Of a stretch of 64,000 bases of DNA, positions 34,362 through 60,702 are shown in pieces. Below the pieces are notes generated by a model, which saw only the letters and a program-made list of their open reading frames with translations, searched no databases and was not told the DNA's origin. Each line of letters opens with the position of its first letter. Within the stretch, counting starts at the first letter, position 1. Made by a program: the position numbers and the translations under genes. The stretch lies in contig NZ_CP107772.1 in the NCBI RefSeq assembly GCF_036345155.1, forward strand, positions 186,001 through 250,000. The letters run 5' to 3'. Source of the stretch: Streptomyces sp. NBC_00582 (lineage in GTDB: Bacteria; Actinomycetota; Actinomycetes; Streptomycetales; Streptomycetaceae).

Positions 34362-35102
34362 ATGGAAGAGAGCGGCATGAGGGCCTCGGGATTCGCCGAG
34401 TGGGCCCGTCACTTCGAGACCGAACGCGACCGCCGCGCGGCCCGGCCCGACCCGCACTGGGAGGCGGGTGCCTCCCTGCCCCCGGCGGTGCGGGCGAGCG
34501 TCCAGCGGTTCCAGGCCGGCGAGGACGGCGACAGCTCGGCCCTGTTCGCCAAGGCGGATGCGGCGGGCGATCCGGAGTACTCGGCGGCGCTGCGGTTGTT
34601 CGTCGCCGAGGAGAAGAACCACGCGAGGCTTCTCGCTCTGCTGCTCAAGGCGGGCGGGGCGACGACGCGGGCCGGGCACTGGAGCGACAGGGCCTTCGCG
34701 CGGCTGCGCCGCGTGCCGGGGCTGCGCACGGAGCTGCTGCTGCTGATGGTCGCGGAGGTGGTCGCCCTGCGCTACTACCGGGCGCTGCGGGACGGGACCG
34801 GCGATCCGCTGACGTCGGAGGTCGCCGGCCGCATCCTGGCGGACGAGGAGCGGCACGTCCCTTTCCACTGCGCGCGGCTGCGCGCGTCCGTCGCGGAGCT
34901 GCCGCGCGCGGCCCGGCGGCCCCTGCTGGCGGGCTGGCGGGTGATGCTCCTCGGCGCGGTGGTGGTAGTAGCGGCCGACCACGGGCGGGCGCTGCGCGGG
35001 CTCGGGGTCGGACGAGGACGTTTCGTGGCGGACGTGCTGAGGTCGGGCGGTCCGGTGACCGCGGCGATCCTCGGGAGGGCCGGCCTCGACCGCGTCCTGT
35101 GA
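34362..35102 (+). CDS. Ferritin-like di-iron protein
   Basis: A 246-residue helical protein with a ferritin-like ligand pattern: Glu84-x2-His87 in VAEEKNHARLL, Glu132 in AEVVALRYY and Glu162-x2-His165 in DEERHVPFH. This is two ExxH motifs plus an extra glutamate, as in acyl-ACP desaturase and related di-iron oxidases. A hydrophobic segment (LLGAVVVVAADHG) near residue 195 may be membrane-associated. The start could be ATG 34362 or ATG 34377. It ends in its own terminator, so it is separate from the esterase operon downstream. Its substrate is unknown; lipid or secondary-metabolite oxidation is possible. Confidence 0.75.
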   Translation: MEESGMRASGFAEWARHFETERDRRAARPDPHWEAGASLPPAVRASVQRFQAGEDGDSSALFAKADAAGDPEYSAALRLFVAEEKNHARLLALLLKAGGATTRAGHWSDRAFARLRRVPGLRTELLLLMVAEVVALRYYRALRDGTGDPLTSEVAGRILADEERHVPFHCARLRASVAELPRAARRPLLAGWRVMLLGAVVVVAADHGRALRGLGVGRGRFVADVLRSGGPVTAAILGRAGLDRVL

Positions 35103-35404: not shown

Positions 35405-36424
35405 ATGCCGTTCACGCTTACTCGTCCGACGTTCCCGGCCTTCAGCGCCAGAAGATTTCTCCATGCCGGCCTGGCCCTTGCCGCATTGCTGTTCGCTGCG
35501 GAAATCCCGGCCCACGCCCATAGCCCGGGCGATGTGCGGCAGAACAGGGCCGGGGAGGCCAGTATTGTTTCGGTCACGCGCATCGACGAGCGCACCCGGG
35601 ACCTCATGGTGCATTCGCCCGCAATGCAGTCCGATATTCCCGTGCGGGTTATTCTCCCGAAGAGCTGGGAAACGGAGAAGGAGCGTAAATTCCCGGTTCT
35701 CTACATGCTGCACGGCGGGAATGACGACTATACGTCGTGGACGCGTGAGACGGATATCGAGGAACTCGCGAGGAACACGGACGTGCTGGTCGTCATGCCT
35801 GACGGCGGGAAATTCGGCTATTACAGCGACTGGCACTCCGGAAAGCGCCTGTGGGAGACGTTCCACACCGGTGAGCTCGTCCGCCTCATGGAGAAGTCCT
35901 ACCGTGCCGGCTCCTCCCGGGCGATCGCGGGGCTGTCCATGGGAGGGTTCGGGGCTCTCAACTACACGGCGCACCACCGGGGGATGTTCCGGTACGTGGC
36001 GGCGATGAGCTCGTACGTGGACCTCAACGAGCCGTCGGTGCGTCTGACCCTGCAGCTGGGTGCGCAGAGGGACGGCGTCGACATCAGTGAGGTCTGGGGC
36101 GATCCGGTGAGGGACTTCACCATCTGGCAGGAGCACAACCCCGCCGCGATGCCCCGGTCGTTCCGCGGGACGCGCGTCCACCTCTCCTCGGGCGACGGAA
36201 CGGTGGGCCCGCTGGACACCGGGCACCCGCTGGACGTCATGCTCGTCGGTTCGGTGGCCGAGACGGTGCTCCCCCGGCAGGTCAGGCGATTCGCCTCGGC
36301 GCTGCGGTCGGCGGGCGTGACGACCACGACGCACATCTACCGGCCCGGTACCCACTCCTGGCCCTACTGGCAGCAGGAACTGCACGGCATCTGGCCCGCC
36401 GTGGTGCGCGTTCTGGGACAGTAG
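35405..36424 (+). CDS. Secreted antigen-85/esterase-D-like alpha/beta hydrolase
   Basis: A 339-residue exported hydrolase or acyltransferase. Residues about 15-38 are a signal peptide (RRFLHAGLALAALLFAAEIPAHA). The alpha/beta hydrolase domain has the oxyanion segment YMLHGGNDDYTSW near residue 100, MPDGGKFGYYSDW near 135, KRLWETFHTGELVRLME, the nucleophile in GLSMGGFGA near 180 and the C-terminal histidine in PGTHSWPYW. The wording around MPDGG...DW...WETF...EL and GLSM is the same as in mycobacterial antigen 85 mycolyltransferases. AAGGAG precedes ATG 35405. It is followed after 45 bases by a glycosyltransferase, then (convergent) by an exporter and the FAAL-PKS pair, so a role in transferring or removing the PKS-made acyl chain outside the cell is plausible. 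Confidence 0.85.
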   Translation: MPFTLTRPTFPAFSARRFLHAGLALAALLFAAEIPAHAHSPGDVRQNRAGEASIVSVTRIDERTRDLMVHSPAMQSDIPVRVILPKSWETEKERKFPVLYMLHGGNDDYTSWTRETDIEELARNTDVLVVMPDGGKFGYYSDWHSGKRLWETFHTGELVRLMEKSYRAGSSRAIAGLSMGGFGALNYTAHHRGMFRYVAAMSSYVDLNEPSVRLTLQLGAQRDGVDISEVWGDPVRDFTIWQEHNPAAMPRSFRGTRVHLSSGDGTVGPLDTGHPLDVMLVGSVAETVLPRQVRRFASALRSAGVTTTTHIYRPGTHSWPYWQQELHGIWPAVVRVLGQ

Positions 36425-36469
36425 CCCGCCGCAGGGCACGGGCCGCCGCTGTGGAGAGAGGTCATCGGG

Positions 36470-37717
36470 ATGGGGCAGCCAACGGTGATGATTTTCGCCG
36501 GCGGGTCGCGCGGCGACGTCCAGCCCTGCCTGGCCCTGGGGCAGGCGCTGGTGCGCCGGGGCATCGCGGTGCGGGTGCTGGCGAGCATGCGTTACGAGCA
36601 GCTGATCGCGGAAACCGGGGTGCGCTTTTATCCGCTGCCGGTCGACCCGGCGGAGATCATCGAATCCGTCGCGGGCCAGGAGCTGCTGTCCGGCCGGCCG
36701 GGCCCGTTCGCCTTCGTCCGCAGGATGAACCGGGTCCTGCGGCCGTGTGTCGAAACGGTCCTGGACCACGCCCAGGCGTGCGCGCAGGGCGCGGACCTCG
36801 TCCTGGCGCCGACCCTGGGCCTGTTCGGTGTGCATCTGAGCCAGTGCCTGGGCGTTGCGCACGCGGTGCTCCACTTCCAGCCGAGCCAGCCCACCGGCGC
36901 TTTCCCGCACCCCTTCGTACCGGCCCGGACCCTGGGCAGTCTCGGCAACCGGGTCAGCTACGACGCGGTGGACATGGGCACCTGGCTGCTGGCCCGGCGT
37001 TTCCTCAACCGCTGGCGCGTCCGGGAGCGGGGGCTGGCGCCCCTGCCGCTGCTGTCCCCCCTGCGCATGGTGCGCCGCGCCCCGGTGCTGTGCGCCTTCA
37101 GCCCGGCCGTGGTCCAGCGGCCGGCGGACTGGGGGCCGAACGTGCACCTGACGGGTTTCTGGAACCTCGAGCGGCCCTCGTGGACTCCCCCCGAGCGGCT
37201 GCGTGCCTTCCTGGAGGCCGGGCCGCCGCCGGTGTACGTGGGGTTCGGCAGTATGAGAACCCCCGACCCGCGGCGTACGGACCGTATGGTCAGGGCCGCT
37301 CTGAGACGGGCGGGCCTGCGCGGTGTGCTCGCCGGGGACCCGGCGATGAGTGAGGACGACATGCTGGTCGTCTCCGACACCCCTCACGAGTGGCTGTTTC
37401 CCCGGATGGCGGGGGTCGTCCATCACGGGGGCGCGGGCACCACCTTCGCGGCGCTGCGGGCGGGCGTGCCGTCCGTGGTGTGCCCGTTCTTCGGTGACCA
37501 GCCGTACTGGGGGGCGCGCGTCCATGCGCTGGGGGCGGGCCCCCGTCCGCTGCCCGCCCGGGACCTGACGGCCGGGAGCCTTCTTCAGCGGCTTTCGGCG
37601 CTCACCGGCGAGGCCGCCTACCGGCGCTGCGCGCGGCGGCTCGGCGGGGCGCTGCGCGCGGAGGACGGCGCCGGGCAAGCCTGCCGCGTCCTGAGGGGGG
37701 TTCTTGCCTGCCTTTAG
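36470..37717 (+). CDS. GT1-family glycosyltransferase (UGT/MGT fold)
   Basis: A 415-residue cytoplasmic GT-B enzyme. The N-terminal acceptor domain starts VMIFAGGSRGDVQPCLALG, as in sterol 3-beta-glucosyltransferases and glycopeptide or macrolide glycosyltransferases. The C-terminal donor domain has VYVGFGSM near residue 257 and the nucleotide-sugar motif HHGGAGTTFAALRAGVPSV with FGDQPYWG near 325-350. It would attach a sugar to a hydrophobic aglycone. GAGAGAGG precedes ATG 36470. Cotranscribed with the antigen-85-like esterase, and convergent with the exporter with 18 bases between stops. The likely acceptor is the lipid made by the PKS (inference). Confidence 0.9.
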   Translation: MGQPTVMIFAGGSRGDVQPCLALGQALVRRGIAVRVLASMRYEQLIAETGVRFYPLPVDPAEIIESVAGQELLSGRPGPFAFVRRMNRVLRPCVETVLDHAQACAQGADLVLAPTLGLFGVHLSQCLGVAHAVLHFQPSQPTGAFPHPFVPARTLGSLGNRVSYDAVDMGTWLLARRFLNRWRVRERGLAPLPLLSPLRMVRRAPVLCAFSPAVVQRPADWGPNVHLTGFWNLERPSWTPPERLRAFLEAGPPPVYVGFGSMRTPDPRRTDRMVRAALRRAGLRGVLAGDPAMSEDDMLVVSDTPHEWLFPRMAGVVHHGGAGTTFAALRAGVPSVVCPFFGDQPYWGARVHALGAGPRPLPARDLTAGSLLQRLSALTGEAAYRRCARRLGGALRAEDGAGQACRVLRGVLACL

Positions 37718-37735
37718 GGCGGCCGCGGGGGGCCG

Positions 37736-39160
37736 TCAGGAGTCGACGAGGGTCTTGTTCCTCACCTGGGGGGAGCGGCGCAGGGCCCACAGGGCCACGG
37801 GTGCGCCGGCCCCCACCAGCACGGCCGCGACGCACAGTCCGGCCTGGTAGCCCGTCGTGAACGCCTGGCCGTCGGGGGCGTGGCCGGTGGCGAGGGATTT
37901 CTCGACGAAGGTGACCACCGCGCCGACCAGCACGATGCCGAACACCCCGGACAGCTCCCGTGCGGCGCTGAAGAGACCGGCGGCGAAGCCCGACAGGTGG
38001 TCGGGGGAGGCGCCCAGCGCCTGGGTGGTCAGCGGCAGGGCCAGGGCCGAGCCCGTTCCCACCGCCGCCAGTCCCGGAAGGAGGTCGAGGAGATGGCCCC
38101 GGTGGCTGCCGGCTGCGACGAGGAGCAGTCCCGCGGCGACCAGCAGCAGCCCCGAGGAGGCGACGCGGGCGTCTGTCCATCGTCGGGCGAGGGCGCCGAC
38201 GAACGGCGCGGTGACGAACAGTGCGCAGACGACCGGGGTGAACGCCAGCCCGGCCCGGGTGGGGCTCAGCCGCAGGCTGTTCTGCAGGAACTGCGAGGTG
38301 TAGAAGTACACCCCGCTCACTCCCAGGCCCCACAGGAGCTGGGTGATCACTCCCCCCGCGAAGGCGCGCCGGCGCAGCAGGGTGACCAGGGCGGGGCTGC
38401 GTCCGGGTCTCCTGATGCAGTAGAGCGTGAGCAGGCCGGTGGCGCCGGCCATCCCGCAGAGCATGACCGGCGGCTCGGTGAATCCGTAGCTGGGTCCCTG
38501 GATCAGGAAGTAGGCGAGGGCGGCCAGGGACAGGCAGGCCAGCGTGATCATGTGGTGCGGTACGACGGCGGCCGGCCCGGGGCGGGCGCCGCGGTGGTGT
38601 GCGGGCCCGGGGATCACCGCGGCCCCGATGACGAAGCCGGCCAGCCCGAGGGGGATGTTGAGGGCGAACAGCCACTGCCAGCCGAGGTGTTGTGTCACCA
38701 CGCCGGAGATCACGGGCCCGAAGGCGAGGGCGGAGGCCATCGTGGCCGACGTCGCGCCGAACGCGGCGGTGCGTGCCCGGCGTGGCACGTCCGTGGCCAT
38801 GACGGCCAGCGAGGACGGCAGGATGAACGCGGCACCGGCGCCCTGCAGGGCGCGGCAGCAGACGAGCATCATGCCGGTGGTCGACAGGGCGCAGCAGACG
38901 GAGGCCAGTGTGAAGGCCGCCACGCCGGTGAGCAGTGCCCAGCGCCGGCCCTTGGTGTCGGTCAGCTGGCCGGCCATCAGCAGAAGGCTGGCCAGGGTGA
39001 GCGGATATGCGGTGGCCACCCATTTCAGATCTGTTTCCGACAGTGAGAGTTGGTGGCGCATCTGCGGCAGGGCCACGTTCACGATGGAGCCGTCGAGTGC
39101 GGTCAGAAATGTGGAGAGAACGGCAGTCGACACGACGCTGGCGGCGCGTAGTCGGCTCAC
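37736..39160 (-). CDS. MFS exporter, DHA2 (EmrB/QacA) family
   Basis: A 474-residue integral membrane transporter with about 14 transmembrane helices. The motif LDGSIVNVALPQM in helix 1, GQLTDTKGRRW (motif A) near residue 70 and a GPVISGVVTQHLGWQWLF motif near 155 are typical of proton-driven DHA2 drug or lipid exporters. GTG 39160 is chosen because GGGAGG lies five bases upstream and the product starts close to helix 1; a longer in-frame start at 39253 would add a polar tail. It diverges from the FAAL-PKS operon across 260 bases, so it probably exports or flips their product. No other transporter is in this cluster. Confidence 0.88.
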   Translation of the reverse strand: MSRLRAASVVSTAVLSTFLTALDGSIVNVALPQMRHQLSLSETDLKWVATAYPLTLASLLLMAGQLTDTKGRRWALLTGVAAFTLASVCCALSTTGMMLVCCRALQGAGAAFILPSSLAVMATDVPRRARTAAFGATSATMASALAFGPVISGVVTQHLGWQWLFALNIPLGLAGFVIGAAVIPGPAHHRGARPGPAAVVPHHMITLACLSLAALAYFLIQGPSYGFTEPPVMLCGMAGATGLLTLYCIRRPGRSPALVTLLRRRAFAGGVITQLLWGLGVSGVYFYTSQFLQNSLRLSPTRAGLAFTPVVCALFVTAPFVGALARRWTDARVASSGLLLVAAGLLLVAAGSHRGHLLDLLPGLAAVGTGSALALPLTTQALGASPDHLSGFAAGLFSAARELSGVFGIVLVGAVVTFVEKSLATGHAPDGQAFTTGYQAGLCVAAVLVGAGAPVALWALRRSPQVRNKTLVDS

Positions 39161-39262
39161 GGTTTCCTCCCGAGGTGCGATACCCCGGCGTGGGGAAAAA
39201 ACAGGTGTCTGGACTGTAAGGCCGCCCTCCCGCGTGATCTCGTCTTCGCGCACGGTACCGGC

Positions 39263-39415
39263 GTGTCACTGGAATATGTCGACATCTCCGTGTTTCGCTG
39301 TGCCATCGATGACCTGGCAAGCCGCGGCACGCGCCAAGCCCTGTTGGGAGTCCGGATGCCCCACGGAGGCAGGCAGAGCGGCGCCACTCTTGCATGCGGA
39401 ATGAAGGTTTGGTGA
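39263..39415 (+). CDS. Possible small protein (50 aa) directly upstream of the acyl-AMP ligase
   Basis: Starting at GTG 39263 this frame encodes a peptide beginning VSLEYVDISVFRCAIDDLAS and ending LACGMKVW, with the TGA 4 bases before the FAAL start codon. Composition is protein-like and unlike the Arg/Pro-rich chance frames elsewhere, and the frame stays open further upstream without a usable start. No ribosome binding site is evident and no family is recognised. It could be a leader peptide or a decayed gene. Confidence 0.3.
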   Translation: MSLEYVDISVFRCAIDDLASRGTRQALLGVRMPHGGRQSGATLACGMKVW

Positions 39416-39419
39416 GCAC

Positions 39420-41159
39420 GTGCCATCACTGGTGACAGAAACACTCGGCCACAATCTCGCCCATGTAGCGGCTCTCACCCCGGATGAAACAGCCGTCACC
39501 TTTGTGGACTACAGTGCCGGCGCCGGCGAGGCCACCTCACTGACCTGGAATCAACTCGAGGAACGGGTTCGTGTCACCGCATCGGGAATTCGGAATCTGT
39601 GTGCGCCCGGTGAGAGAGTGGCGGTCGTCGCGCCGCAGAGCCTCGCCTACATGGTCGGGTTCCTGGCGGCCGCGTGTTCCGGTGCGATCGCCGTCCCGAT
39701 GTTCATGCCCTCTCTGCCGGGGCATGCGGAGAAACTCGCGGCCGTGCTCAAGGACGCCGCTCCCGCCCTGGTGCTGACCGTCGAGGAGCAGCGCCGTCCT
39801 CTTGCGGAGTTCTGCGCCGACCAGCAGATTCCCGCCACGTGCCGGATCGTCACCGAGTCGGATCTGTGCGGCGCGGCCACGGGATCCGGTTCCCCCCTGG
39901 GGGGGCTTGATCCGCAGCAGGTGGCGTATCTGCAGTACACCTCGGGCTCGACCCGTGTTCCGTCGGGGGTGGAGATCACCCATGCGAATGTGTGCGCCAA
40001 CGCCCGTCAGGCGCTGGAGGCGTACGACCTCGCCCGGGGCCGCAACTGCACGGTGGGGTGGCTGCCGCTCTACCACGACATGGGACTCGTCCTGGCCGTC
40101 GCCCTGCCGATCCTCGGTCATCTTCCCTCCGTGGTCATGGACCCGCTGGCGTTCATCCAGCAGCCGGCCCGCTGGCTGCGGTTGCTGTCCCGGTATCGCG
40201 GTGCGCTGACCGCCGCGCCCAATTTCGCCTACGACTACTGTCTTCACCGCCTGCAGGACGAGGACCGCGCGGAGCTCTCGCTGGGATCCGTCGCGGCGAT
40301 GGTCAACGGCAGTGAGCCGGTCGCGGCGCGCACCCTGGAGCGCTTCCAGGCGGGGTTCGCGTCCGCGGGCATGCGGCGTGTGCTCATGCGTCCCTCGTAC
40401 GGGCTGGCCGAGGCGACGGTGTTCGTGTGTGCTTCGCCGGTGGGCGAGGAGCCGACCGTCACGTCCTTCGACCGGGAGGCCCTGGGGCGGGGAATCGCCC
40501 GGGCCGTCGATGCCGCCGACGGGCAAACGGCCGTGGAGGTGGTGGCGTGCGGTCGTCCCACCGGTCAGGAGCTGGCGATCGTCGATCCGGCGACGTGCCG
40601 GCGCCGGGAGGACGGCGTGATCGGCGAGATCTGGCTGCGCGGGCCGAACATCGGCCGCGGCTACTGGAACCGTGAGCAGGACAGCGCCGCCACGTTCGGC
40701 GCGGTGGTGCAGGGCGAGGACGGCGGCGCCCCGTGGCTGCGCACCGGGGATCTGGGGGTGTGGCACGACAAGCAGCTCTATGTCACGGGGCGGCTGAAGG
40801 ACCTGGTGATCATCGACGGGACCAACCACTATCCGCACGACATCGAGGAGAGCGCCCAGAAGGCGCATCCCGCCATCCGCCCCCATCACCTCGCCGCCTT
40901 CGCGGTGCCTGCTGCCGAGGGCGAACGGCTCGTCGTGGTGGCCGAGCACGCGCGGGACGTGGACCCTTCCCTGATCGCCCTGGAGGAGGTGACGCGGGCG
41001 GTGCGCAGTGCGGTCGCCGCCCGGCACGGGGCGGCCGTGCACGACTTCGTTCTGGTGCCGCCGGGCACGGTGCCGCACACCACCAGCGGCAAGGTGGCCC
41101 GTGGTGCCTGCCGGGAGCGGTACCTGACGGGGGTGTGGAGCGGGGGCGCCGACGCGTAG
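39420..41159 (+). CDS. Fatty-acyl-AMP ligase (FAAL, FadD32-like)
   Basis: A 579-residue adenylating enzyme. The ATP-binding P-loop YTSGST is at residues 173-178, followed by VEITHANV; GWLPLYHDMGL (near 217), the adenylate motif YGLAEATVFV (near 325), TGDLG (near 436) and the C-terminal lysine region TTSGKVARGACRERYL are in order. The HDMGL wording and the extra insertion are typical of FAALs, which make acyl-AMP and load it onto an ACP rather than CoA, as FadD32 does for Pks13. GTG 39420 is the start. The PKS begins 47 bases downstream, with an N-terminal ACP that is the expected acceptor. Confidence 0.92.
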   Translation: MPSLVTETLGHNLAHVAALTPDETAVTFVDYSAGAGEATSLTWNQLEERVRVTASGIRNLCAPGERVAVVAPQSLAYMVGFLAAACSGAIAVPMFMPSLPGHAEKLAAVLKDAAPALVLTVEEQRRPLAEFCADQQIPATCRIVTESDLCGAATGSGSPLGGLDPQQVAYLQYTSGSTRVPSGVEITHANVCANARQALEAYDLARGRNCTVGWLPLYHDMGLVLAVALPILGHLPSVVMDPLAFIQQPARWLRLLSRYRGALTAAPNFAYDYCLHRLQDEDRAELSLGSVAAMVNGSEPVAARTLERFQAGFASAGMRRVLMRPSYGLAEATVFVCASPVGEEPTVTSFDREALGRGIARAVDAADGQTAVEVVACGRPTGQELAIVDPATCRRREDGVIGEIWLRGPNIGRGYWNREQDSAATFGAVVQGEDGGAPWLRTGDLGVWHDKQLYVTGRLKDLVIIDGTNHYPHDIEESAQKAHPAIRPHHLAAFAVPAAEGERLVVVAEHARDVDPSLIALEEVTRAVRSAVAARHGAAVHDFVLVPPGTVPHTTSGKVARGACRERYLTGVWSGGADA

Positions 41160-41206
41160 GCACCACCGTGGGGCACGGGCTGGAGCGCAGGCAGAGGGAG
41201 AGAGTG

Positions 41207-44200
41207 ATGGAAGCGGACAGGGAAGCAACGGGGGCATCCGGGCGGCGGCCGGTTGCCCGCGGTGAACTGCGGTCGGTTGTGCGCCGGCTCGTCGCGGAGG
41301 CCTGTGGGGTGGCGCAGGAGGAGATCGACGACGCGCGTCCTGTGGTGGAGTACGGGCTGACCTCGCGTGGCGCGGTGGCTCTGGCGGGCCGGCTGGAGCA
41401 GGTGTTAGACCTGTCGCTGCCCGCCACGCTGCTGTGGGAGACCCGCACGATCGACGAGCTGGTGCGGCGTCTGGGCACCGTCGGGGACGGTGCGGGCCGC
41501 TCGCGCGGGCAGGACGAGGGGCGGCCGCGGGGCGGTGACCGGCCCGCCGGCGCGGCGGCCGTTGCCGGCGGCGGTGGTGTGGGCGAGGGCCCGCCGGCGC
41601 CCGAGCCGATCGCGGTGATCGGTCTGGGCTGCCGGCTGCCGGGGGGTGTCAGCGGCCCCGAGGCGCTGTGGAAGCAGCTGCTGGCCGGGAGGGACTTCGT
41701 CGGGGATGTGCCGGCCGCGCGCCGCAGGTCCTTCGCGACCGGTTCGTTGGGCGGGGCGCCCGTCGAGGACGTCATCGGGCAGGGTTCCTTCCTCGACGAC
41801 GTCGAGGCCTTCGACGCGGAGTACTTCGGCATCACCCCGCGTGAGGCGCAGGTGATGGACCCCCAGCAGCGTCTGCTCCTGGAGGTCGCCTGCGAGGCCC
41901 TGGACCATGCCGGCCGGCCCGCCTTCGGCCTCGAGGGCAGTGACACGGGTGTGTTCGTCGGCCTCAGTGCCCTCGAGTACGGGCACCTCACCACGGCGGA
42001 CCCCGCGCGCCTGACGCCGTGGACCAGCACCGGCGCGGCGGGAAGCATCGCCGCCAACCGGCTGTCGTACCTGCTCGACCTGCACGGTCCCAGTGTCACG
42101 GTCGACACGGCCTGCTCGTCCTCGCTGGTGGCGGTGCACCAGGCCTGCGTGAGCCTGAGCCGCGGCGAGTGCGACACCGCCCTGGCGGCGGGCACCAACG
42201 TGCTGCTGCTGCCGGCCGTCACGGCGTCCTTCGAGCAGGCCGGGGCGCTGGCGGCGGACCGGCGGTGCAAACCCTTCGACGCGGCGGCGGACGGCATCAC
42301 CCGCGCGGAGGGGTGCGCGGTCGTCGTCCTGAAGCGGCTGGCCCAGGCGCAGCGCGACGGCGACCGGATCCTGGCCGTCGTCAAGGGCTCCGCGGTCAAC
42401 AGTGACGGCCGGTCGGCCGGCCTGATGGCCCCCAACCCGGCGGCGCAGGAAAGCCTCCTGCGCAGGGCGCTGGGCACCGCCGGGGTCGACGCCGGCAGCA
42501 TCGACTACGTCGAGACGCACGGCACCGGCACCCTGCTCGGCGACCCCATGGAAGCCGGCGCGCTCGGCGCCGTCATGGGCCGCGGCAGGCCCGCCGACCA
42601 GCCGCTGCTCATCGGCTCGGTGAAGAGCAACCTGGGGCATCTCGAGGGCGCGGCGGGAATCGTCGGTCTGGTCAAGACCGTGCTGGCGCTGCACCACCGG
42701 CACATCCCGCAAAATCTGCACTTCCACACGCCCAACCCGCACATCGATTTCACCGGCCTGCGGCTGCGGGTGGTCTCGGCCCCCCAGGACTGGCCCGTCC
42801 ATGAGGGCCGCCCCGCCCGGGCCGGGGTGTCGGCCTTCGGTTTCGGGGGCACCAACGCGCACATCGTGCTCGAACAGGCGCCCGTCACCGCCTCCGGCGC
42901 GGCGGGCAGCGAGGAGAGCGCTGCCGCCGGTGAGGGGCCCCACGTGCTGGTCGTGTCCTCGCGCTCCGCACAGCGCATCGGTGACGCCGCCGCCGCCCTG
43001 GCACGGCTTGCCGCCCGCGACGACGCACCGTCCCTGCGAGACCTCGCCCACACGCTCGCCCGTCACCGCAGCGGGCCGGTGTGCGCCGCCGTCACCGCAC
43101 GCACCCACGAGGAAGCGGCCCGCCTGCTGGCGGCTCTCGCCCGCGCCCAGGAGGGCTTCGGCCTTGTCGCGCCCTGCCCCGACCAGTACGCGGTGCGGGC
43201 GTTGGCGGGCCGTCGGCCCGTCTTCGTCTTCTCGGGGCACGGCTCGCAGTGGCCGGGAATGGGGTGGCGCCTGCTCCAGCAGGACACGCTGTTCGACGCC
43301 GCGGTGCGCGACCTCGATCCGCTCTACGCGCAGGCGACGGGTCACTCCTTGCGCACTCTGCTCGACGTGTCGGCCGGCGCGGGCGTCGAGCATGTCCAGC
43401 CCCTGCTGTTCGGCATGCACGTCGCGCTGGCCCGCACCCTGGAGGCCTACGGTGTGCGGCCCGCCGCCGTGATCGGCCACTCGGTGGGCGAGGTGAGCGC
43501 CGCGGTCGTCGCCGGAGCGCTCAGCGCCGCCGACGGCCTGCGCGCCGTCCTCGCGCGGTCGGCGCAGCTGGCCGCCGTCGACACCGAGGGCGCCGGCGCC
43601 ATGGCCGCCCTCGAGCTGGACGCCGGGGAACGGGCGCCGGTGCTGGCACGGTATGCCGGCGTCGAGATCGCCGTGCACTCCTCCCCGCGCAGGTGCACGG
43701 TGACCGGGCCGGCCCCCGAAGTGCGCCGTCTGGTCGACGACCTGGCCGCCGAGGGCCGTCTCGCCCGGCTGCTGGACGTCGGGGGCGCGGGACACTCCCC
43801 GGCCGTGGACGTCGTCCTTGCGCCCCTGCGCGACGCCCTGGGCACGCTCGCCCCGGGCCGGGCCGACGTCACCTGGTACACCACCGTCCTGGACGATCCG
43901 CGCGCCGCGGTCCACGCCGATGCCGACTACTGGTGCGCCAACGTGCGGCGCCCGGTGCGTCTGCACCAGGCCGTCGAGGCCGCCGCCGACGACGGCCTCG
44001 ACCTCTTCGTGGAGATCTCCCCCCACCCCATCGCCGTGGTGCCGGTGAGTGAAACCCTCCACGCGGCCCGCGCCACCGCACAGACGTGGGTGATCCCCAC
44101 CCTGGACAGGCGGTCGGACGAGGCGGTCGGCCTGCGCACCGCGCTCACCCGGCTGCACTTCGCGGGGGTGAGGGTGAACGAGAGCCGCCTGTGGCCCGCG

Positions 44201-47200
44201 GGCGGCCGCACCGCCCTTCCCAGCCCCCTGTGGCGCCACGGCCGGTACTGGTTCGACCGCCGGCGCGCCACGCCGTCCTGCGGCGTTCCCGGTGCGGGCC
44301 CGCTCGCCGTGCGCACCGACGATCCGCGCACGGGCGCCGTCCTGTGGCAGAGCGACCTCGGCACGTCCGGCCCGCACCCCTTCGCCCGTGCCCTGCACGG
44401 ACAGCCGGTGCTCACCCTGCCCGCGGCCGCCGCCCTGGTGATCGCGGCCGCCCGGGAGGTCCACGGGCACGACGCCGCGGCGGACCTCCTGCTCGAAGAC
44501 CTCGTCATCGACCGGTGGCTCCCGCTGTCCACGAGCACCCCCGTCACCCTCCTGTGGGAGCCCGCCGGCGAGCGCGCGAGGGTCACCGTCAACGCCCGTG
44601 CGGCGGACGGCAGCTGGCACTGCTACGCGTCGGCGCACGTCACCACCGGCACCGGGGTGGTGCCGTGCGAAGACACCTCCCTCACCAGCCCGCCGGCGAC
44701 CCTCGTCAGCCAGTGGGAACCCGCCGGGGACGAGGCGGCGGACGGCGAACGCGACCTGCCCGGGCCCGAGGCCCTCCTCACGGCGCTGCTGTACGCGCCG
44801 GCTCCCGGCGGGGCGCAGAGCGCGGACGGCAACGCCCTGGGCGCCGGGTGCGCGCCCACCGTCCCCGCCGCCGTGCGCCACCTGCACCTCCAGCAGCCGA
44901 CCGGGCGCGAGCCGGTCACCATCGAGGCCTTTCCGGCGGCGCCCGCGCCCGGGCAGGACGCCCCCGTCCCCGGGGCGGACGCGCTGTGGGACGTCGTGGC
45001 GCGCGGGGGACAGACCCGGATCACCGCCCGCGGCGTGCGGCTGCGTTCCCCCGGCCACGGGGAGATCCGCAGGCCGCTCGAAGCGCTCAGCTACGACATC
45101 CAGTGGCAGAAGTCGCCCGCCGCGCTGCCCGAAGCGCTCGACAGCGTCCTGCTCCTGGCGCACGAGGCGCCCACCGGCGGCGCCACCGGCCCGCTGACGT
45201 CGTCCCTGGACGCGGCGCTGCGCGCGAAGGGCGTACGGACCACGGTCGGTGCGGCCTGCGGCACGGATACGGAAGCGGTCCTCGACGACTGGCTGGCAGG
45301 CACCGAATCCGACGCCCACCGGGCCGTGGTGCTGCTGCTGACCCGGCCGCCCGCCGACGCCGCCGACGCCACGGGCCTGCACACGGCCTGCCGGGTCGCG
45401 CGACGGATCGCCTCGGGGGTGCCAGCCGGGCGCCAGCCGCGGCTGTGGATGGTCACCGAGCGGGCCCGGGCCGTGCACCCGGGAGAGACGGGCCGGCCGA
45501 ACCTGGCCTGTCTGCGCGGCCTCGTACGCGCCCTGGCCCTGGAACAGCCCCTGCTGCGGGCCAGCCTGGTGGACCTGGACGACTCCCTCGGATCGGGTGA
45601 GGAACTCCTGCAGGAACTGCTCGGCGACAGTGCCGAGGACGAGGTCGTCTGGCGGACGGGGACCCGGCTCGTCGCCCGTCTTTCTCCCGCCGACCTGACC
45701 GCGCAGCAGTACCAGACCCCCTTCGTCGGCCGGCAGGGCGCCTACATCGTCACCGGTGGCCTGAGCGGGCTGGGGCTGGCAACAGCCCGCCGTCTGGCCG
45801 AGCAGGGGGCGGGCCGCCTGGTCCTCAACGGGCGGCGCCCCGCCACGCCGCAGGCCCGCAAGGTCATCGGTGAGCTGCAGGCCCACGGGACCTCGGTCAC
45901 CGTGGTGCACGGCGACATCGCCGACCCCGCGGTGGCGCCGCGCCTGGTGCGGGCAGCGCTCAGCGAGGGCCACCGGCTGCGCGGCGTCGCCCATTGCGCG
46001 GGCGTGCTCCACGACCGGATGATCACCGACCTGGCATCCGGTGACATCGACACCGTGCTGCGGGCGAAGGTGCTCGGCGCGCTGCGCCTGGAGGAGGCCC
46101 TCGCCCCCCACGACATCGACTGGTGGGTGTTCTACAGTTCGGCGGCCGCGCTGCTCGGCTCCCCCGGCCAGTCGGCCTACGCCGCCGCCAACGCCTGGCT
46201 GGACGCGGTGGCGCAGCGCCGCAGGGCCGAGGGAAAGCCGGCCGCCTCCATCGCCTGGGGGCCCTGGAGCGAGACCGGTGGCGTGCCCGCGGGGCGGGCC
46301 ATGGCGCTGCGGTCACTGACCCTGAGCGAGGGGCTGGACGCCCTGCAGACGCTCGTCGTGCACCACCGCACGCACACGGGGGTGGCCCACTTCGACACCG
46401 AACAAGTCCTCGGGGCGTTTCCCGGCGTGTCCGCCATCCCGTTCTTCGCACAGTGCTTCCCCGGCGATGCCGCCCCCGGCGACGACTGGGCCGGCCCCGA
46501 CGGTATCGGGGCGCTCGGCGACGGCGCCGCGGGGAAGGTCTACGCACGCCTGGTCGAGCGCACCGCCGCTGTCATGGGCTTGGGGGCGGCGAGCATCGAC
46601 CAGAGCGTTCCGCTTCCCCGGCTGGGCCTGGACTCGCTGATGGCGGTGCGCCTGCGCAATGCCGCCCGGCAGGACTTCGGCATCGACCTGGCGCCCGACC
46701 TCATGCTGCGCGGGGCGACACTTGAGCAGATCGGCGAGGCCGTCCTGGACGGCCTCGGCCTCAAGGGTGACAACGTACGGACCCCCGCCCCGCCGCCGAA
46801 GGGGACCGCCGGCGCGGCGGGCTCGCCCCGCCGGCCCGCGCTGCCGTCCTCGATCCAGCCCCGGGACGCCGCCGAACGCCTGGTGGCCGGGGCCTGGGCC
46901 GAGGTGCTGGGGCAGCGCCCCGCGGACGTCTTCAGCGACTTCACCGCGGCCGGCGCCGACCAGGACGCGGCCGGACGCCTCCTCGACGTGATCCGCGGGC
47001 GTCTGGACGGCATGCGGCTGGATCTGACCGCGCCGGCCCTGCTCACCGCGGGGACGGTGGCCGGCATCGCGGAACTGATCCGGCCCTCGGTCAACCCGGA
47101 CGGACACTCCACGGTCACCGTCCTGCGGCCCCCCTCGCCGGGCTCCGCCCGCCTCCCCCTGTTCACCTTCCACCCGGCCGGCGGGCCCACCTCCGTCTAC

Positions 47201-47941
47201 CGGCCCCTGACCCAGCTCCTGCCGCCCGACCAGGCCGTGTACGGCATGGAGCGCGTCGACGACCTGCACACGATGGAGGAGAAGGCGGCCCACTACGTCC
47301 GTCTCATCACAGACCTCCAGCCCCAGGGGCCCTACCGTCTTCTGGGCTGGTCGTTCGGCGGCTGTCTCGCCTACGAGGCGGCCCGCCAGCTGGCACAGGC
47401 GGGCCGGCAGGTCGGCTTCCTCGGCCTGATCGACACGATCCTGCCGGCCGCCCTTCCCGACCTCGACTCGCGCGAGCTGCTCCTGGAACGGTTCACCCGG
47501 TTCGCCGAGTACATCGACAAGACGTACGGCAAGAAGCTGGATCTGCCCTACGACGAGCTTGCGGCGACCCCGGACGAGCAGCAGATCGACGTCGTCATGC
47601 GCCTGGTGGCCGAGGCGGGACTCGACATGAGCCCGGGCATCATGGAGCACCAGCGGACCTCGTACGTGGACGCACGCGTCGGCGAGCGCTACACCCCGCA
47701 GCCCACCGGCGCGCACGTGGTCCTCTACCGGGCCCAGCAGGCGCAGCCCCTGACCACCGCTTTGGACCCGCGGTATCTGAGGCCGGAGGCGGATCTGGGC
47801 TGGGCGCCGCTGTGCGCCCGCCTGGAGATCGTGCCCGTGCAGGGCGACCACCTCTCCCTCATCGACCCACCGCACGTCGCCGCCATCGCCCGGCATCTGA
47901 CGCGGGCACTCGCGCAGCGGGCCGCCGGTCCAGGGCAGTAG
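41207..47941 (+). CDS. Pks13-like polyketide synthase: ACP-KS-AT-(DH-like)-KR-ACP-(ACP*)-TE
   Basis: A 2,244-residue type I PKS. ACP1 at about 20-90 (phosphopantetheine Ser53 in EYGLTSRGAV). KS at about 133-560 with Cys303 (DTACSSS), His438 (ETHGTGT) and His478 (SNLGHLEGAAG). AT at about 670-960 with Ser759 (GHSVGE); the specificity segment reads GGAGHSP, not HAFH or YASH. A DH-like region at about 1035-1290 lacks the HxxxGxxxxP motif. KR at about 1295-1700 with TGGLSGLG and Ser1645/Tyr1658/Asn1662. ACP2 Ser1810 (GLDSL). A further ACP-like segment at about 1885-1960 has ADQD where GxDS is expected, so lacks the serine. TE at about 1985-2244 with Ser2049 (GWSFGG) and GDH. ATG 41207 follows GAGGGAG. 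The N-terminal ACP, terminal TE and adjacent FAAL match mycobacterial Pks13; KR and DH-like parts are additions. It probably condenses a FAAL-activated fatty acid with a carboxyacyl unit and reduces the beta-keto group. Confidence 0.93.
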   Translation: MEADREATGASGRRPVARGELRSVVRRLVAEACGVAQEEIDDARPVVEYGLTSRGAVALAGRLEQVLDLSLPATLLWETRTIDELVRRLGTVGDGAGRSRGQDEGRPRGGDRPAGAAAVAGGGGVGEGPPAPEPIAVIGLGCRLPGGVSGPEALWKQLLAGRDFVGDVPAARRRSFATGSLGGAPVEDVIGQGSFLDDVEAFDAEYFGITPREAQVMDPQQRLLLEVACEALDHAGRPAFGLEGSDTGVFVGLSALEYGHLTTADPARLTPWTSTGAAGSIAANRLSYLLDLHGPSVTVDTACSSSLVAVHQACVSLSRGECDTALAAGTNVLLLPAVTASFEQAGALAADRRCKPFDAAADGITRAEGCAVVVLKRLAQAQRDGDRILAVVKGSAVNSDGRSAGLMAPNPAAQESLLRRALGTAGVDAGSIDYVETHGTGTLLGDPMEAGALGAVMGRGRPADQPLLIGSVKSNLGHLEGAAGIVGLVKTVLALHHRHIPQNLHFHTPNPHIDFTGLRLRVVSAPQDWPVHEGRPARAGVSAFGFGGTNAHIVLEQAPVTASGAAGSEESAAAGEGPHVLVVSSRSAQRIGDAAAALARLAARDDAPSLRDLAHTLARHRSGPVCAAVTARTHEEAARLLAALARAQEGFGLVAPCPDQYAVRALAGRRPVFVFSGHGSQWPGMGWRLLQQDTLFDAAVRDLDPLYAQATGHSLRTLLDVSAGAGVEHVQPLLFGMHVALARTLEAYGVRPAAVIGHSVGEVSAAVVAGALSAADGLRAVLARSAQLAAVDTEGAGAMAALELDAGERAPVLARYAGVEIAVHSSPRRCTVTGPAPEVRRLVDDLAAEGRLARLLDVGGAGHSPAVDVVLAPLRDALGTLAPGRADVTWYTTVLDDPRAAVHADADYWCANVRRPVRLHQAVEAAADDGLDLFVEISPHPIAVVPVSETLHAARATAQTWVIPTLDRRSDEAVGLRTALTRLHFAGVRVNESRLWPAGGRTALPSPLWRHGRYWFDRRRATPSCGVPGAGPLAVRTDDPRTGAVLWQSDLGTSGPHPFARALHGQPVLTLPAAAALVIAAAREVHGHDAAADLLLEDLVIDRWLPLSTSTPVTLLWEPAGERARVTVNARAADGSWHCYASAHVTTGTGVVPCEDTSLTSPPATLVSQWEPAGDEAADGERDLPGPEALLTALLYAPAPGGAQSADGNALGAGCAPTVPAAVRHLHLQQPTGREPVTIEAFPAAPAPGQDAPVPGADALWDVVARGGQTRITARGVRLRSPGHGEIRRPLEALSYDIQWQKSPAALPEALDSVLLLAHEAPTGGATGPLTSSLDAALRAKGVRTTVGAACGTDTEAVLDDWLAGTESDAHRAVVLLLTRPPADAADATGLHTACRVARRIASGVPAGRQPRLWMVTERARAVHPGETGRPNLACLRGLVRALALEQPLLRASLVDLDDSLGSGEELLQELLGDSAEDEVVWRTGTRLVARLSPADLTAQQYQTPFVGRQGAYIVTGGLSGLGLATARRLAEQGAGRLVLNGRRPATPQARKVIGELQAHGTSVTVVHGDIADPAVAPRLVRAALSEGHRLRGVAHCAGVLHDRMITDLASGDIDTVLRAKVLGALRLEEALAPHDIDWWVFYSSAAALLGSPGQSAYAAANAWLDAVAQRRRAEGKPAASIAWGPWSETGGVPAGRAMALRSLTLSEGLDALQTLVVHHRTHTGVAHFDTEQVLGAFPGVSAIPFFAQCFPGDAAPGDDWAGPDGIGALGDGAAGKVYARLVERTAAVMGLGAASIDQSVPLPRLGLDSLMAVRLRNAARQDFGIDLAPDLMLRGATLEQIGEAVLDGLGLKGDNVRTPAPPPKGTAGAAGSPRRPALPSSIQPRDAAERLVAGAWAEVLGQRPADVFSDFTAAGADQDAAGRLLDVIRGRLDGMRLDLTAPALLTAGTVAGIAELIRPSVNPDGHSTVTVLRPPSPGSARLPLFTFHPAGGPTSVYRPLTQLLPPDQAVYGMERVDDLHTMEEKAAHYVRLITDLQPQGPYRLLGWSFGGCLAYEAARQLAQAGRQVGFLGLIDTILPAALPDLDSRELLLERFTRFAEYIDKTYGKKLDLPYDELAATPDEQQIDVVMRLVAEAGLDMSPGIMEHQRTSYVDARVGERYTPQPTGAHVVLYRAQQAQPLTTALDPRYLRPEADLGWAPLCARLEIVPVQGDHLSLIDPPHVAAIARHLTRALAQRAAGPGQ

Positions 47942-49267
47942 TCACCGGCGGAAGGCGTGCAGGCGCCTGTCATCGATCCGGGCCCGGGCGCCCGGATCGG
48001 TGACGCCCAGCCCCGGCGCGGGCGCCAGGCACAGCACGCCGACCTTGCCGATGTGCTGGTTGGTCTGAACGCTGCGCGCCGCGGCGGCGACGTCGTCGAG
48101 CGGGTAGGTCCTGGACAGCGTGGGCACCACGTGGCCCAGGGCGAGGAGCCGGTTGACCTCCCACTGCTCGTGGAGGTTGGCGCCGTGGCTTCCGATGATC
48201 CGCTTCAGGCGCATCCACAGATACCGGTTGTCGTAGAGGTGTTCGTATCCGGTGCTCGAGCCGCAGGTGATGACGGTGCCTCCGCGCCTGGCCAGGAAGA
48301 CGGACGCGGCGAACGTCTTCTGCCCGACATGCTCGAAGACGATGTGCGGGTCCTCACCGACCGCGGCGCGGATGGCCTTGCCCATCTTCTTCCAGCCCTC
48401 CGGCCGCTGCAGAAGGGTGGGATCGCCCTCGTCGATGTCGGTGCGGTTGATGACCGCTTCACAGCCCAGCGTTTTCAACACGCGGGCCTTCTCCGCGGAG
48501 TTGACGACGCCGACGGGGATGCCGCCGCCGCCCAGGACGAGCTGGACGGCGTAGGCGCCCAGACCGCCGCTGGCACCCCAGACGAGGACGACGTCGCCCT
48601 GCTTCATCCGGGCGCCGCGTTCACTGACCAGCATCCGGTACGCGGTGCTCGCGCACAGCGGGTTGACGGCTGCCTCCTCCCAGCTCAGCGCAGCCGGTTT
48701 CGGCATCAGCTGGCTGGCCCGCACGACGGCGTAGTGGGCCAGCCCGCCGAAGTTGGTCTCGAAGCCCCAGGCCTTCTGCCCCTCACCGAGCATCCCGTCG
48801 CGATGGGTGTCGGGGTCCTGTTCGTCGACGTAGGCCGGCGAGATCACGACGTGATCGCCCACCTTCCACCTGCGGACCGACGATCCCGTGCGGACGATGA
48901 CCCCGCAGGCGTCGGACCCGACGATGTGATACGGAAGGTCGTGACGTGCCTCCCACCCGCCGCTGCGGCCCATCTGCCGCAGGAACTGGAAAGTGGGCAC
49001 CGGCTCGAACATGGCGGTCCACACCGTGTTGTAGTTGATGGAGCTCGCCATCACCGCGATCAGCGCCTCGTCCGGCGCCAGCTCCGGCATGGGGACCCGG
49101 TCGACGAAAAGGGACTTGCGTACGTCCTTGTCCTCCATGGACCGGAAGATGTCGACGTCCTCCTTGCGGACCACGGCGGCGGGGAAGTGGTCCGGCAGGG
49201 GAAGAGACTCCAGGACCGCAGCGTCGGCGCCGGCGAGAACTGCGTCGGACATGGAGGACTGCATCAT
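47942..49267 (-). CDS. ccr: Crotonyl-CoA carboxylase/reductase
   Basis: A 441-residue MDR-superfamily enzyme that reductively carboxylates enoyl-CoAs to alkylmalonyl-CoAs, using NADPH and CO2. The N-terminal SSINYNTVWTAMFEPVPTF (near residue 85-105) and the DPDTHRDGMLGEGQKAWGFET segment (landmark HRDGMLGEGQ) are diagnostic of CCR, and the Rossmann motif WGASGGLGAY is near 240. AAGGAG precedes ATG 49267 (ATG 49264 also possible). It is convergent with the PKS with no base between the two stop codons. It most likely supplies ethylmalonyl-CoA or a longer alkylmalonyl-CoA extender to that PKS, which would fit the AT's unusual specificity motif. Confidence 0.93.
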   Translation of the reverse strand: MMQSSMSDAVLAGADAAVLESLPLPDHFPAAVVRKEDVDIFRSMEDKDVRKSLFVDRVPMPELAPDEALIAVMASSINYNTVWTAMFEPVPTFQFLRQMGRSGGWEARHDLPYHIVGSDACGVIVRTGSSVRRWKVGDHVVISPAYVDEQDPDTHRDGMLGEGQKAWGFETNFGGLAHYAVVRASQLMPKPAALSWEEAAVNPLCASTAYRMLVSERGARMKQGDVVLVWGASGGLGAYAVQLVLGGGGIPVGVVNSAEKARVLKTLGCEAVINRTDIDEGDPTLLQRPEGWKKMGKAIRAAVGEDPHIVFEHVGQKTFAASVFLARRGGTVITCGSSTGYEHLYDNRYLWMRLKRIIGSHGANLHEQWEVNRLLALGHVVPTLSRTYPLDDVAAAARSVQTNQHIGKVGVLCLAPAPGLGVTDPGARARIDDRRLHAFRR

Positions 49268-50080
49268 GGCTCCTTGTGTCGGATGCTGGGGCGTGCACTG
49301 CGGCTGCTCTCCAGCAAGCAGTTACTTCGCCGGTGCCGCAACCGCAAAAGCGCGCCGTACGCTCGCCGCCGACGGCAAAGCCGCAGATCAGGCGCGTTCT
49401 GTTCCGGCCGCCCGGCGTGGTGTCCCGCTCTCGAAGGGAGCAGCGCGCATGACGGGCCGCGGCCGCCGACGCCGCCGGCGGTGCCGGCGGCTTCCCCGGG
49501 CGGGCGGCGGGCGCGCACCGGTGCGCTCCGAGCGCGGGCCGGCTCCGCGGGAGGAAACGGTCAAGGACATCGTCCGGGCGGTCACCTCACCCGCCTGCGC
49601 GGGGGCGGCCGTTCGCCTGCTTCGCCGCGGGAGCGGGCGATCGGGGCCGCGATGCGCGGAGCGCGCAGGGATGCCCGCCCCCTTCCCTCTTCGCGGGCCG
49701 GGGCGGTGGGCGCCCGGGCCCACGGGAGGCGCCCGGGGGCTGTGACGTAGCGGCCCCGGCGGGGGCGTGTCCCGTTCGGTGGCCCCCGGTCGCAGGCTTC
49801 GCACCCCCCGCCGCCGCGGGTGCCGCCGGCTCAGGCGATCGCAGGCTTCCCACCCCCGCCGCCGCGGATGCCGCCGGCTCAGGCGATCGCAGGCTTCCCA
49901 CCCCCGCCGCCGCGGGTGCTGCCGGCTCAGGCGCCGGCGAGGAGGAGCGAGGAGGAGCGGTGTGTGGGTGTCCGGCAGGACGGGTGCCGCGCAGCCGGGC
50001 CCGGCTCCGATGTCCCCCGGCCGGACGGCAGGTGCGCCGGGCGCAGGGGCCGACGGCGGCGTCGGGGAGGGCGGAGAAGA
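49268..50080. other. Gene-free GC-rich stretch
   Basis: No credible gene is seen on either strand. The left end is the CCR promoter region. The right part contains the 48-base tandem repeat listed separately. Open frames here are rich in Arg, Pro and Gly in every phase, as expected by chance at this GC content. Confidence 0.5.
49792..49932. repeat. 48-base tandem repeat, three copies
   Basis: Copies start at 49792, 49841 and 49889, each beginning GCAGGCTTC and ending in GCCGGCTCAGGCG. The period is a multiple of 3 (except one extra base in the first copy), so on the minus strand it reads as a 16-residue repeat (RLSRRHPRRRGWEACD). Confidence 0.9.
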
Positions 50081-50345
50081 GCGTCCCGTCGCAGGGAGCG
50101 CCGGCCCCGACGCGGCCGCCGCCATGGGCGCGCCGAGCGGCAGCAGCCATACGGGCGTGGACCGCGCCCCGTGCGGGTGTACGGCCATGACGTACGGCAC
50201 GGCGACGGCCGCCGCCAGCGCCACGACCGTACCGGCGCCGAACAGCACGGCGTCGAGGGCGACCGCGGGCCCGGTGCCGGTCCAGTCCCGCCCGACGGCG
50301 AGGGGCCTCGCGGGCGCACAGGTGGCGCGGGCCCATCGGGAGGCC
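50080..50345 (-). pseudogene. Fragment resembling a TDT/TehA (SLAC1-type) transporter
   Basis: A minus-strand frame gives PAVALDAVLFGAGTVVALA, then AVAVPYVMAVHPHG and WLLPLGAPMAAAASGPAL. The order of a hydrophobic helix, VPYxM, then WLLPxxxPMxxAAxG matches part of tellurite-resistance/dicarboxylate (TDT) family transporters, which have WLMPVVPPMVSAATG at this point. Neither the preceding nor the following helices are present, so this is a decayed remnant at best. The remaining bases to 50740 show no gene. Confidence 0.4.
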
Positions 50346-50747
50346 TGCGTGCCGCCGCCCCCGCGTCCCGGACGTGGACCTCAGCGGCCCGGCGATCCAC
50401 GCCAGCCCGTCCGGAACACCCCGGCTCCCCGTGCTGCGGCCCGTACCGGGTCAGGTCACCGGTTCGGCAGGGGGCCGGCAGTCATGCCCGCCCCGGAGGC
50501 CGGCGGTCCTCTGGCAGGACCGCCGGCGAAGACAACGGGGCAGCCGGTGGACCGGGCGCGCGACTGCGCGGCGGCCCCTGGACGCGGGCATCCCCGGGGG
50601 GCGGGGGCAGGCCCGCCGGGTCCGGGCCGTCCGGGCCAGGGCACCGGGCCGTCCGGGCCAGGGCTCCGGGCCGTCCTGCCCGGTGAGGCCGAACCCGCCG
50701 GCGGTACGCGCAGGCCCCGCCCCCCGGGACGCCTTCACCCTTGACCC

Positions 50748-50789
50748 AATCGGCCGCTTTTGAAGGAATGTTGATGATATGGGCCGATT
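50748..50789. promoter_or_regulatory. Candidate promoter/operator upstream of the Ig-like gene
   Basis: AATCGGCC (50748-50755) and its complement GGCCGATT (50782-50789) flank an AT-rich 26-base segment containing TTGATGATAT, about 80 bases upstream of the start codon. Confidence 0.4.
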
Positions 50790-50867
50790 TGAAGACTTAT
50801 CGTCACCTAGCGTAAAGGCATCCAGGACCATCCGGCGGCAGAAGAAGACAAAGGGAGTTGACCCGTG

Positions 50868-51344: not shown

Positions 51345-51825
51345 CCACCGCCGCCGGGCCACCGGGTTTGCCGGGACGGTGCCGTGGCAGGACACGCGGA
51401 GGGGGCCGGGGCGGCAGGTGCCCGCCCCCGGGTGATCTGGGGCCGGCCGGGCGGCGCATGACGACGGCGGCCGTCCGGCGCGGGGCGCCGGCCCTCCGTC
51501 CAGGGCGCGCAAGGCGCCGCCGCCTCGGCGGGGCAGCCCGCCGGGTTCCGGGGGCGCGCCTCAGGCATCCGGGACGGTCCCGCCCCTGCCCCTGCCCCTG
51601 CCCGGTGGTGAACCGTCACAGGGTGCCCTGGTCCTCTCCCCCGGCGGCCCGGCCGCCGGGCCCCGGCCCGCTCCCGGCTCCTGCCCGTGCGGCAGGCCCC
51701 GCGGCGGGGGAAAGGGGCCGGGCGAACGCCGGCTGCCCGCCTGCGAGGCTCCTGGCCGTCACAGGCGGGCGTGAAGCGGGTGCCGGCGCGCCGAAAAGGG
51801 GGCGCGCCCGCTGTGGGGCGGCGTA
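51345..51825. other. Gene-free stretch between convergent surface-protein genes
   Basis: No gene is seen in these 481 bases. A run of four CCCCTG hexamers lies near 51583-51606. Confidence 0.5.
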
Positions 51826-54517: not shown

Positions 54518-54526
54518 ACCAGCCCA

Positions 54527-57000: not shown

Positions 57001-57001
57001 C

Positions 57002-60680: not shown

Positions 60681-60702
60681 AACCGCGCCCTACATGATCA
60701 GC

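Follow-up and report, generated by a model that had tools for sequence, protein, structure and literature searches.

A six-gene locus of Streptomyces sp. NBC_00582 is judged, with a probability of roughly 0.7, to encode a mycolate-like assembly line of seven steps. The window, by which the whole analysed stretch of 64,000 nucleotides is meant (contig NZ_CP107772.1, positions 186,001 to 250,000), carries at 35405-49267, within about 14 kb, genes for an antigen 85 (Ag85)-like esterase, a GT1-type glycosyltransferase (GT), a major facilitator superfamily (MFS) exporter, a fatty-acyl-AMP ligase (FAAL), a polyketide synthase (PKS) and a crotonyl-CoA carboxylase/reductase (CCR). Streptomyces and the families of the relatives that carry comparable loci are not known to contain mycolates, and the host is not expected to make mycolic acids; what it makes, exports and transfers instead is probably a small lipid of a mycolate-like type. 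The locus appears to work like the mycolate system of the Mycobacteriales (FadD32, Pks13, AccD4, MmpL3 and Ag85) and is kin to it: the FAAL lies beside a PKS that opens with an acyl carrier protein (ACP) domain and closes with a Pks13-type thioesterase (TE), an Ag85-like esterase is at hand, many relatives possess an AccD4-like gene and some a cutinase or an MmpL3-like transporter, and the trees support common ancestry with Pks13 over the ketosynthase (KS) and acyltransferase (AT), with Ag85 and, in the relatives, with AccD4. Unlike that system, the window has a ketoreductase (KR) inside the PKS, a CCR in place of AccD4, an MFS protein in place of MmpL3, and a GT.

Six linked genes and their conservation

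The initial annotation, made from the sequence alone, had named these six genes, and all of them are present at the sites it gave, as open reading frames (ORFs) with Pfam or NCBIfam matches. The gene of the probably secreted esterase (35405-36424, plus strand; PF00756) and that of the GT1/GT28-type GT (36470-37717, plus; EryCIII-like_C and Glyco_transf_28) form a pair separated by 45 bases. The putative DHA2-type MFS exporter gene (37736-39253, minus) is divergent from the gene of the FadD32-like FAAL (39420-41159, plus), downstream of which the Pks13-like PKS gene extends over about 41207-47941 (plus), its listed GTG start at 40733 being too early and falling within the FAAL gene. The convergent gene of the CinF-like CCR homologue (47942-49267, minus) abuts the PKS stop. 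The locus lies inside the terminal inverted repeat of this 11.1 Mb genome and is therefore present twice: FAAL, esterase, KS and CCR are each found two times at mirror positions of the 10,791,786-base contig, with the FAAL copies (C1:225420-227156 and C1:10564632-10566368) 100% identical.

The linkage was followed into relatives from two sides. From the FAAL, 53 loci outside the mycolata were considered, of which 44 (the window among them) spanned 19.5 kb or more and were counted, leaving out shorter loci and two that share a contig with another locus (L063 with L033, L032 with L047); some absences may reflect the end of a stretch. A KS was found in 38 of the 44, a TE in 35, an Ag85-like esterase in 36, and FAAL, KS, TE and esterase together in 32, while none of 13 control FAAL loci, which are the authors' own selection, had an Ag85-like esterase; the co-occurrence exceeds chance. 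Other genes and domains were less frequent (AccD 19, CCR 8, cutinase 10, KR 15, dehydratase (DH) 10). The co-occurrence that the initial annotation had proposed stands for these four components, and its esterase/GT pair is rarer, being found in four of the 44 loci (window, L060, L079 and L085) and also in L247 and L249.

From the esterase, a set of 159 Streptomyces genomes, to which that of the window belongs, gave matches with E of 1e-50 or better in 63 genomes, with 78 places listed. Among the 28 best places (at least 362 bits, 25 genomes), 27 sit at a locus of the window's kind: 25 have a PKS TE or a CCR in the fetched stretch, and the window and its repeat copy make up the other two, so that only L249 remains; the limit of 362 bits was chosen after the results had been seen, two unlinked places scoring 361.6 and 360.1 just below it. 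At the 14 places examined of the 50 lower-scoring ones (L232-L241, L246, L248, L250 and L251), no FAAL, KS, TE or CCR was found within 18-19 kb, so Ag85-like esterases also exist outside such loci in Streptomyces, and the esterase alone was rejected as a diagnostic of the locus. In L247 the window's combination of GT, esterase, CCR and PKS recurs; L249 holds a GT, an MFS gene and an esterase gene with an in-frame stop, no PKS, and is perhaps a decaying copy.

Several variants recur in the relatives. A KR-less one in Streptomyces (e.g. L055) combines AccD, FAAL, a PKS of the order ACP-KS-AT-ACP-TE, an Ag85-like esterase and a cutinase, and neither DH nor KR was matched between KS and TE in the KR-less loci L033-L037 and L055. 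Cutinase genes stand beside KR-less AccD loci in L055, L033-L035, L037, L052, L053, L059, L061, L066 and L081; the mycobacterial cluster Rv3799c-Rv3804c is likewise described as containing, besides a putative cutinase gene, those for joining the two halves of the mycolate (PMC2625445). The Pseudonocardiaceae variant comprises MFS, FAAL, a PKS with DH and KR, AccD, an Ag85-like esterase and sometimes an MMPL protein (L058), and in Actinomadura, Spirillospora and Nonomuraea the FAAL occurs with MMPL, partly with esterase, GT, MFS and KS further on.

Ancestry of the PKS, the FAAL and the esterase

The PKS reads ACP-KS-AT-(decayed DH)-KR-ACP-(ACP-like stretch without carrier serine)-TE, all on the plus strand. 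Its N-terminal ACP (41276-41473; PP-binding, residues 182-247 of a 2402-aa ORF), for which the FAAL is the expected loader, is followed by the KS (41603-42727), the AT with the motif GAGHS (43220-44173), the KR (45737-46273), the second ACP, the ACP-like stretch (about 46856-47062) and the TE (47156-47902). An alignment of 117 rows was made up of the window protein and those longer than 2050 aa among 120 listed homologues, the window's own protein being one of these. The KS Cys, AT Ser, second ACP Ser, TE Ser and TE His are kept in 117/117 rows and the first ACP Ser in 115/117; the KR retains its Tyr in 113 rows and the Asp of the LxD motif in all 117, and the ACP-like stretch has Asp at the carrier-serine position in 99. 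A DH-like stretch lies between AT and KR, and an active DH was rejected: PF14765, which matches elsewhere in the genome, has no match in the window, and the DH motif appears decayed as judged by eye. A FAAL directly upstream of an ACP-first, TE-ended PKS with a built-in KR, as initially annotated, is accordingly what the domain matches display.

The nearest solved proteins to the PKS are Pks13 (869 bits) and mycocerosic acid synthase (855 bits), and its TE matches the Pks13 TE best (205 bits; next family 91). The NCBIfam equivalog mycolic_Pks13 is the top NCBIfam model at 1234.8 bits, below its cut-off of 2100, with PKS_plus_SDR next at 1193. Before tree building, the KS, FAAL and esterase sets were cleared of identical sequences and of those mycobacterial and locus rows that were short or near-duplicates. 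The KS+AT tree of 47 rows separates the 22 locus rows and 10 Pks13 rows, with support 100/98, from 15 modules of other PKSs chosen by the authors, and it groups the locus rows together (87/94). In the KS-only tree of 87 rows, 28 of 30 other KSs share a single branch with a support of 86 in the Shimodaira-Hasegawa-like approximate likelihood ratio test (SH-aLRT); of the two remaining, L043 falls among the locus rows and L168 forms a long solitary branch. KS phylogeny, which the initial annotation had named as a check, thus places the PKS with Pks13 and outside the ordinary modular clade, and an ordinary modular type I PKS was rejected on the KS+AT tree.

For the FAAL, the nearest solved chains are 5d6j/5icr, named acyl-CoA synthase (424 bits), which are presumably mycobacterial FadD32, followed by 5hm3, named FadD32 (417 bits), and FadD23 (382 bits). 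The FadD32 equivalog of NCBIfam scores 524, below its cut-off of 975, and is surpassed by two general FAAL models (555 and 548). The locus FAALs and a FadD32-containing clade meet at a common fork (SH-aLRT 93), outside which 17 other FAALs remain, 12 of them of the same genus; inside it the locus FAALs fall into several groups, FadD32 is mixed with other mycolata FAALs, and the fork gives no settled branching order.

The esterase is kin, in sequence and in fold, to Ag85 and the mycoloyltransferases over other PF00756 esterases, the likeness that had first been noticed in its wording. Its nearest solved relatives are PS1/Cmt1 and Ag85, with a small lead of the Ag85-type fold over esterase D. 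A hidden Markov model (HMM) built without locus sequences, which replaced a circular joint HMM of locus and Ag85 esterases, scores it at 183 bits and the other PF00756 proteins fetched from three genomes at 34 or less, except one paralogue (156). In the tree, seven other PF00756 proteins are set apart from the 36 locus rows and 34 rows of Ag85 type with a starred support of 97, a join that long outgroup rows may render false by long-branch attraction. Across 40 aligned rows including mycolata enzymes, Ser138, His277, Trp279 and Trp282 are invariant and Glu246 is kept in at least 90%, so that the residues common with Ag85 reach beyond the catalytic triad, which we take to be Ser138, Glu246 and His277; the window esterase has these three and the GxHxWxxW landmark. 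Its signal peptide was judged by eye only. Ag85 genes have been stated to be present only in mycolate-positive species (PMC6194230).

Extender unit, glycosyltransferase and exporter

The window CCR scores 555 bits with TIGR01751 (cut-off 379) and 630 bits with the octenoyl-CoA carboxylase CinF (PDB 4a0s), the next match reaching 500. The Gly of the GSHG motif, a small residue of the pocket, is present as in CinF in all eight locus CCRs, and Phe (GSHF) occupies the position in the likely housekeeping CCRs of the host and five related genomes; this residue of CCR sets chain length. A housekeeping role of the window CCR was rejected, the likely housekeeping copy being a second gene (C1:2294924), closer to the TIGR01751 model and with GSHF. 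The AT motif AGHS recurs in 36 of 41 locus ATs; Pks13 ATs have [KR]GA[SG]HT, and the modular ATs of the host genome HAFH or, in two, YASH/YGSH. AGHS has been proposed for hexylmalonyl-CoA, as in CinA, PteA5 and DpnP2 (PMC10888640), and a protein 66% identical to CinF was assigned to octenoyl-CoA in work on matlystatin and actinonin (PMC5719088). AT motif and CCR agree in suggesting a long alkyl branch in the window, of which neither is proof; unlike in CinF systems, the extender would here serve a single Pks13-like module and not a multi-module line.

That a CCR takes the place of a carboxylase, as the initial annotation had it, is borne out in the 32 core loci, where AccD alone occurs in 18, CCR alone in 8, both in none and neither in 6 (Fisher p 2.9e-4, uncorrected for kinship); in the window it is the CCR that is found instead of AccD4. 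The AccD of the relatives groups with AccD4 (SH-aLRT 91, not starred) in a tree with 12 of 25 mycolata AccD rows. By their PKS, the CCR loci form two groups, of which the first (window, L031) has a KR and the second (L039, L040, L056, L073, L076 and L082) lacks it, and since the tree neighbours of both carry AccD (L048 and L049; the L033-L037 type), AccD and CCR have likely been swapped more than once.

The solved structures nearest to the GT are a sterol 3-beta-glucosyltransferase (160 bits) and GtfB (108 bits), and its relatives are met beside FAAL and MMPL genes in Actinomadura, Spirillospora and Nonomuraea and beside esterase, CCR and PKS in L247. The MFS protein reaches 179 bits with the NCBIfam DHA2/EmrB model, below the cut-off of 230, and is nearest to EfpA (124 bits) and an antiseptic-resistance protein (118 bits). 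The proposal of an MFS exporter in place of a resistance-nodulation-division exporter such as MmpL3 holds for the window itself and not as a rule for its relatives, which have an MFS protein (21 of 44 loci), an MMPL protein (7 of 44), both or neither; the best NCBIfam model for the MMPL protein of L079 is MmpL3, at 408 bits and below the cut-off of 1400. Because the equivalog scores lie below their cut-offs, the extra KR, decayed DH-like and ACP-like stretches depart from the strict Pks13 order ACP-KS-AT-ACP-TE, and other proteins stand in for AccD4 and MmpL3, the window is not classed as a member of the mycolate system.

Around the locus, a 246-aa protein whose weak AurF match stays below the Pfam cut-off is encoded 5' of the esterase gene (34362-35102, plus) and possibly belongs to the cluster, and a 1429-aa protein that combines a trypsin-like peptidase domain with an nSTAND1 NTPase domain lies further upstream (29193-33482, minus). 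On the other side, a partner scan of ten ORFs at 49.4-62.6 kb matched only a SLAC1 fragment, below the cut-off, and a histidine kinase (61320-62633). The region 49400-61300, where nine hand-picked long ORFs (49388-60697) gave that single sub-cut-off SLAC1 fragment, seems gene-poor and looks decayed.

Proposed pathway, alternatives and implications

For the assembly line we infer every substrate and product, the last four of the seven steps and the biological role. In the first step, FAAL would adenylate a fatty acid and load it onto the N-terminal ACP. In the second, where mycobacteria rely on the unit supplied by AccD4, the CinF-like CCR would make an alkylmalonyl-CoA (probably hexylmalonyl-CoA), which the AT would load onto the second ACP. 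In the third, the KS would join both chains and the built-in KR would furnish a 2-alkyl-3-hydroxyacyl chain, whose 3-hydroxy group would be kept because the DH is decayed; in mycobacteria, the keto group is reduced by a separate CmrA. The Pks13-type TE would then release the acyl chain, most likely by transfer to a sugar, as the Pks13 TE transfers to trehalose in mycobacteria, the GT would add or supply a sugar, possibly on the 3-hydroxyl, and the MFS protein would export the glycolipid. Finally, outside the cell, the Ag85-like enzyme would pass the acyl chain of one glycolipid on to a different acceptor, and the outcome would be a diester, a macrodiolide or a surface-bound lipid. For such a role Streptomyces offers a parallel, by description and not by sequence, in Cpz21 of the caprazamycin pathway, named a carboxylesterase and held to act as an acyltransferase (PMC9636800), which differs in moving a 3-methylglutaryl group onto a liponucleoside. 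Two findings weigh against the proposed assembly line: a GT of this kind occurs in only five of the 44 loci, and with 39 lacking it glycosylation is the weakest step of the pathway; and AGHS is also present in AccD-type loci, so this motif alone cannot tell hexyl from other branches.

As a special case, which is thought unlikely, the product could be a secreted macrodiolide of the glucolypsin/fattiviracin type, where the GT would glucosylate the 3-hydroxyl and the Ag85-like enzyme, or the TE, would link two units head to tail via esters at the sugar 6-hydroxyl. Glucolypsin, fattiviracin and cycloviracin are actinomycete esters of glycosylated hydroxy fatty acids, and glucolypsin, known from Streptomyces and Nocardia, is a dimer of glucose and 2-methyl-3-hydroxy fatty acid units joined via glucose C6 (PMC4365757); such a unit requires a FAAL, a single PKS module, a KR, a GT and an acyltransferase, and the GT adjoins the esterase in the window. 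However, the alkyl branch indicated by CCR and AT motif is longer than the 2-methyl group of glucolypsin, cycloviracin is described without 2-methyl branches (PMC4365757), the 39 loci without the GT count here as well, and neither a gene cluster for these three compounds nor an account of a locus like the present one was found among the titles listed by searches of the open-access literature, subscription papers not being covered.

It is still more doubtful that FAAL, PKS and CCR make a lipid antibiotic or signal which the esterase, as a hydrolase, activates or detoxifies outside the cell, or for which it serves as a resistant target copy. The esterase has its fold in common with esterase D-type hydrolases, and tetrahydrolipstatin, a 2-alkyl-3-acyloxy lipid, forms an acyl-enzyme with Ag85C in a solved structure, to go by its title; but the Ag85 residues are kept beyond the triad, the tree places the esterase with the mycoloyltransferases, and the linkage recurs in several actinomycete families, including loci with AccD4-like and MmpL3-like genes. 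A structural lipid of hyphae or spores, forming a mycomembrane-like coat and not a diffusible metabolite, is improbable too: Ag85 and MmpL3 do serve envelope building in mycobacteria (PMC6194230), yet high-scoring esterases of the locus type are patchy (present in 25 of the 159 Streptomyces genomes, counting that of the window) and the locus sits in the terminal inverted repeat. Terminal inverted repeats are typical of dispensable genes. A chance neighbourhood of an ordinary modular PKS fragment and an unrelated esterase is scarcely credible and was refuted by the co-occurrence (32/44 loci against 0/13 controls) and the KS+AT tree (100/98 with Pks13), even though PF00756 esterases are common (12 matches in the host genome) and gene clusters abound at chromosome ends.

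Beyond the window, the assembly line may exemplify a widespread 'mini-mycolate' system outside the mycolata, a tentative proposal held at somewhat less than even odds, in which a kin module of Streptomyces, Actinacidiphila, Pseudonocardiaceae, Actinomadura/Spirillospora, Nonomuraea and probably Frankia would make glycolipids with shorter 2-alkyl-3-hydroxy, 3-oxo or unsaturated acyl chains and transfer them outside, the CCR having replaced AccD4 in two Streptomyces groups. The locus provides a safe model for the chemistry of Pks13 and Ag85, and from it a new class of lipids, secreted or at the surface, is predicted, for which harmless soil bacteria can be searched straight away. That kin genes are kept together across several actinobacterial families regarded as mycolate-free suggests where the mycomembrane pathway originated; if the wider proposal is true, this pathway would be one specialised offshoot of a more ancient module for lipid assembly in actinobacteria.

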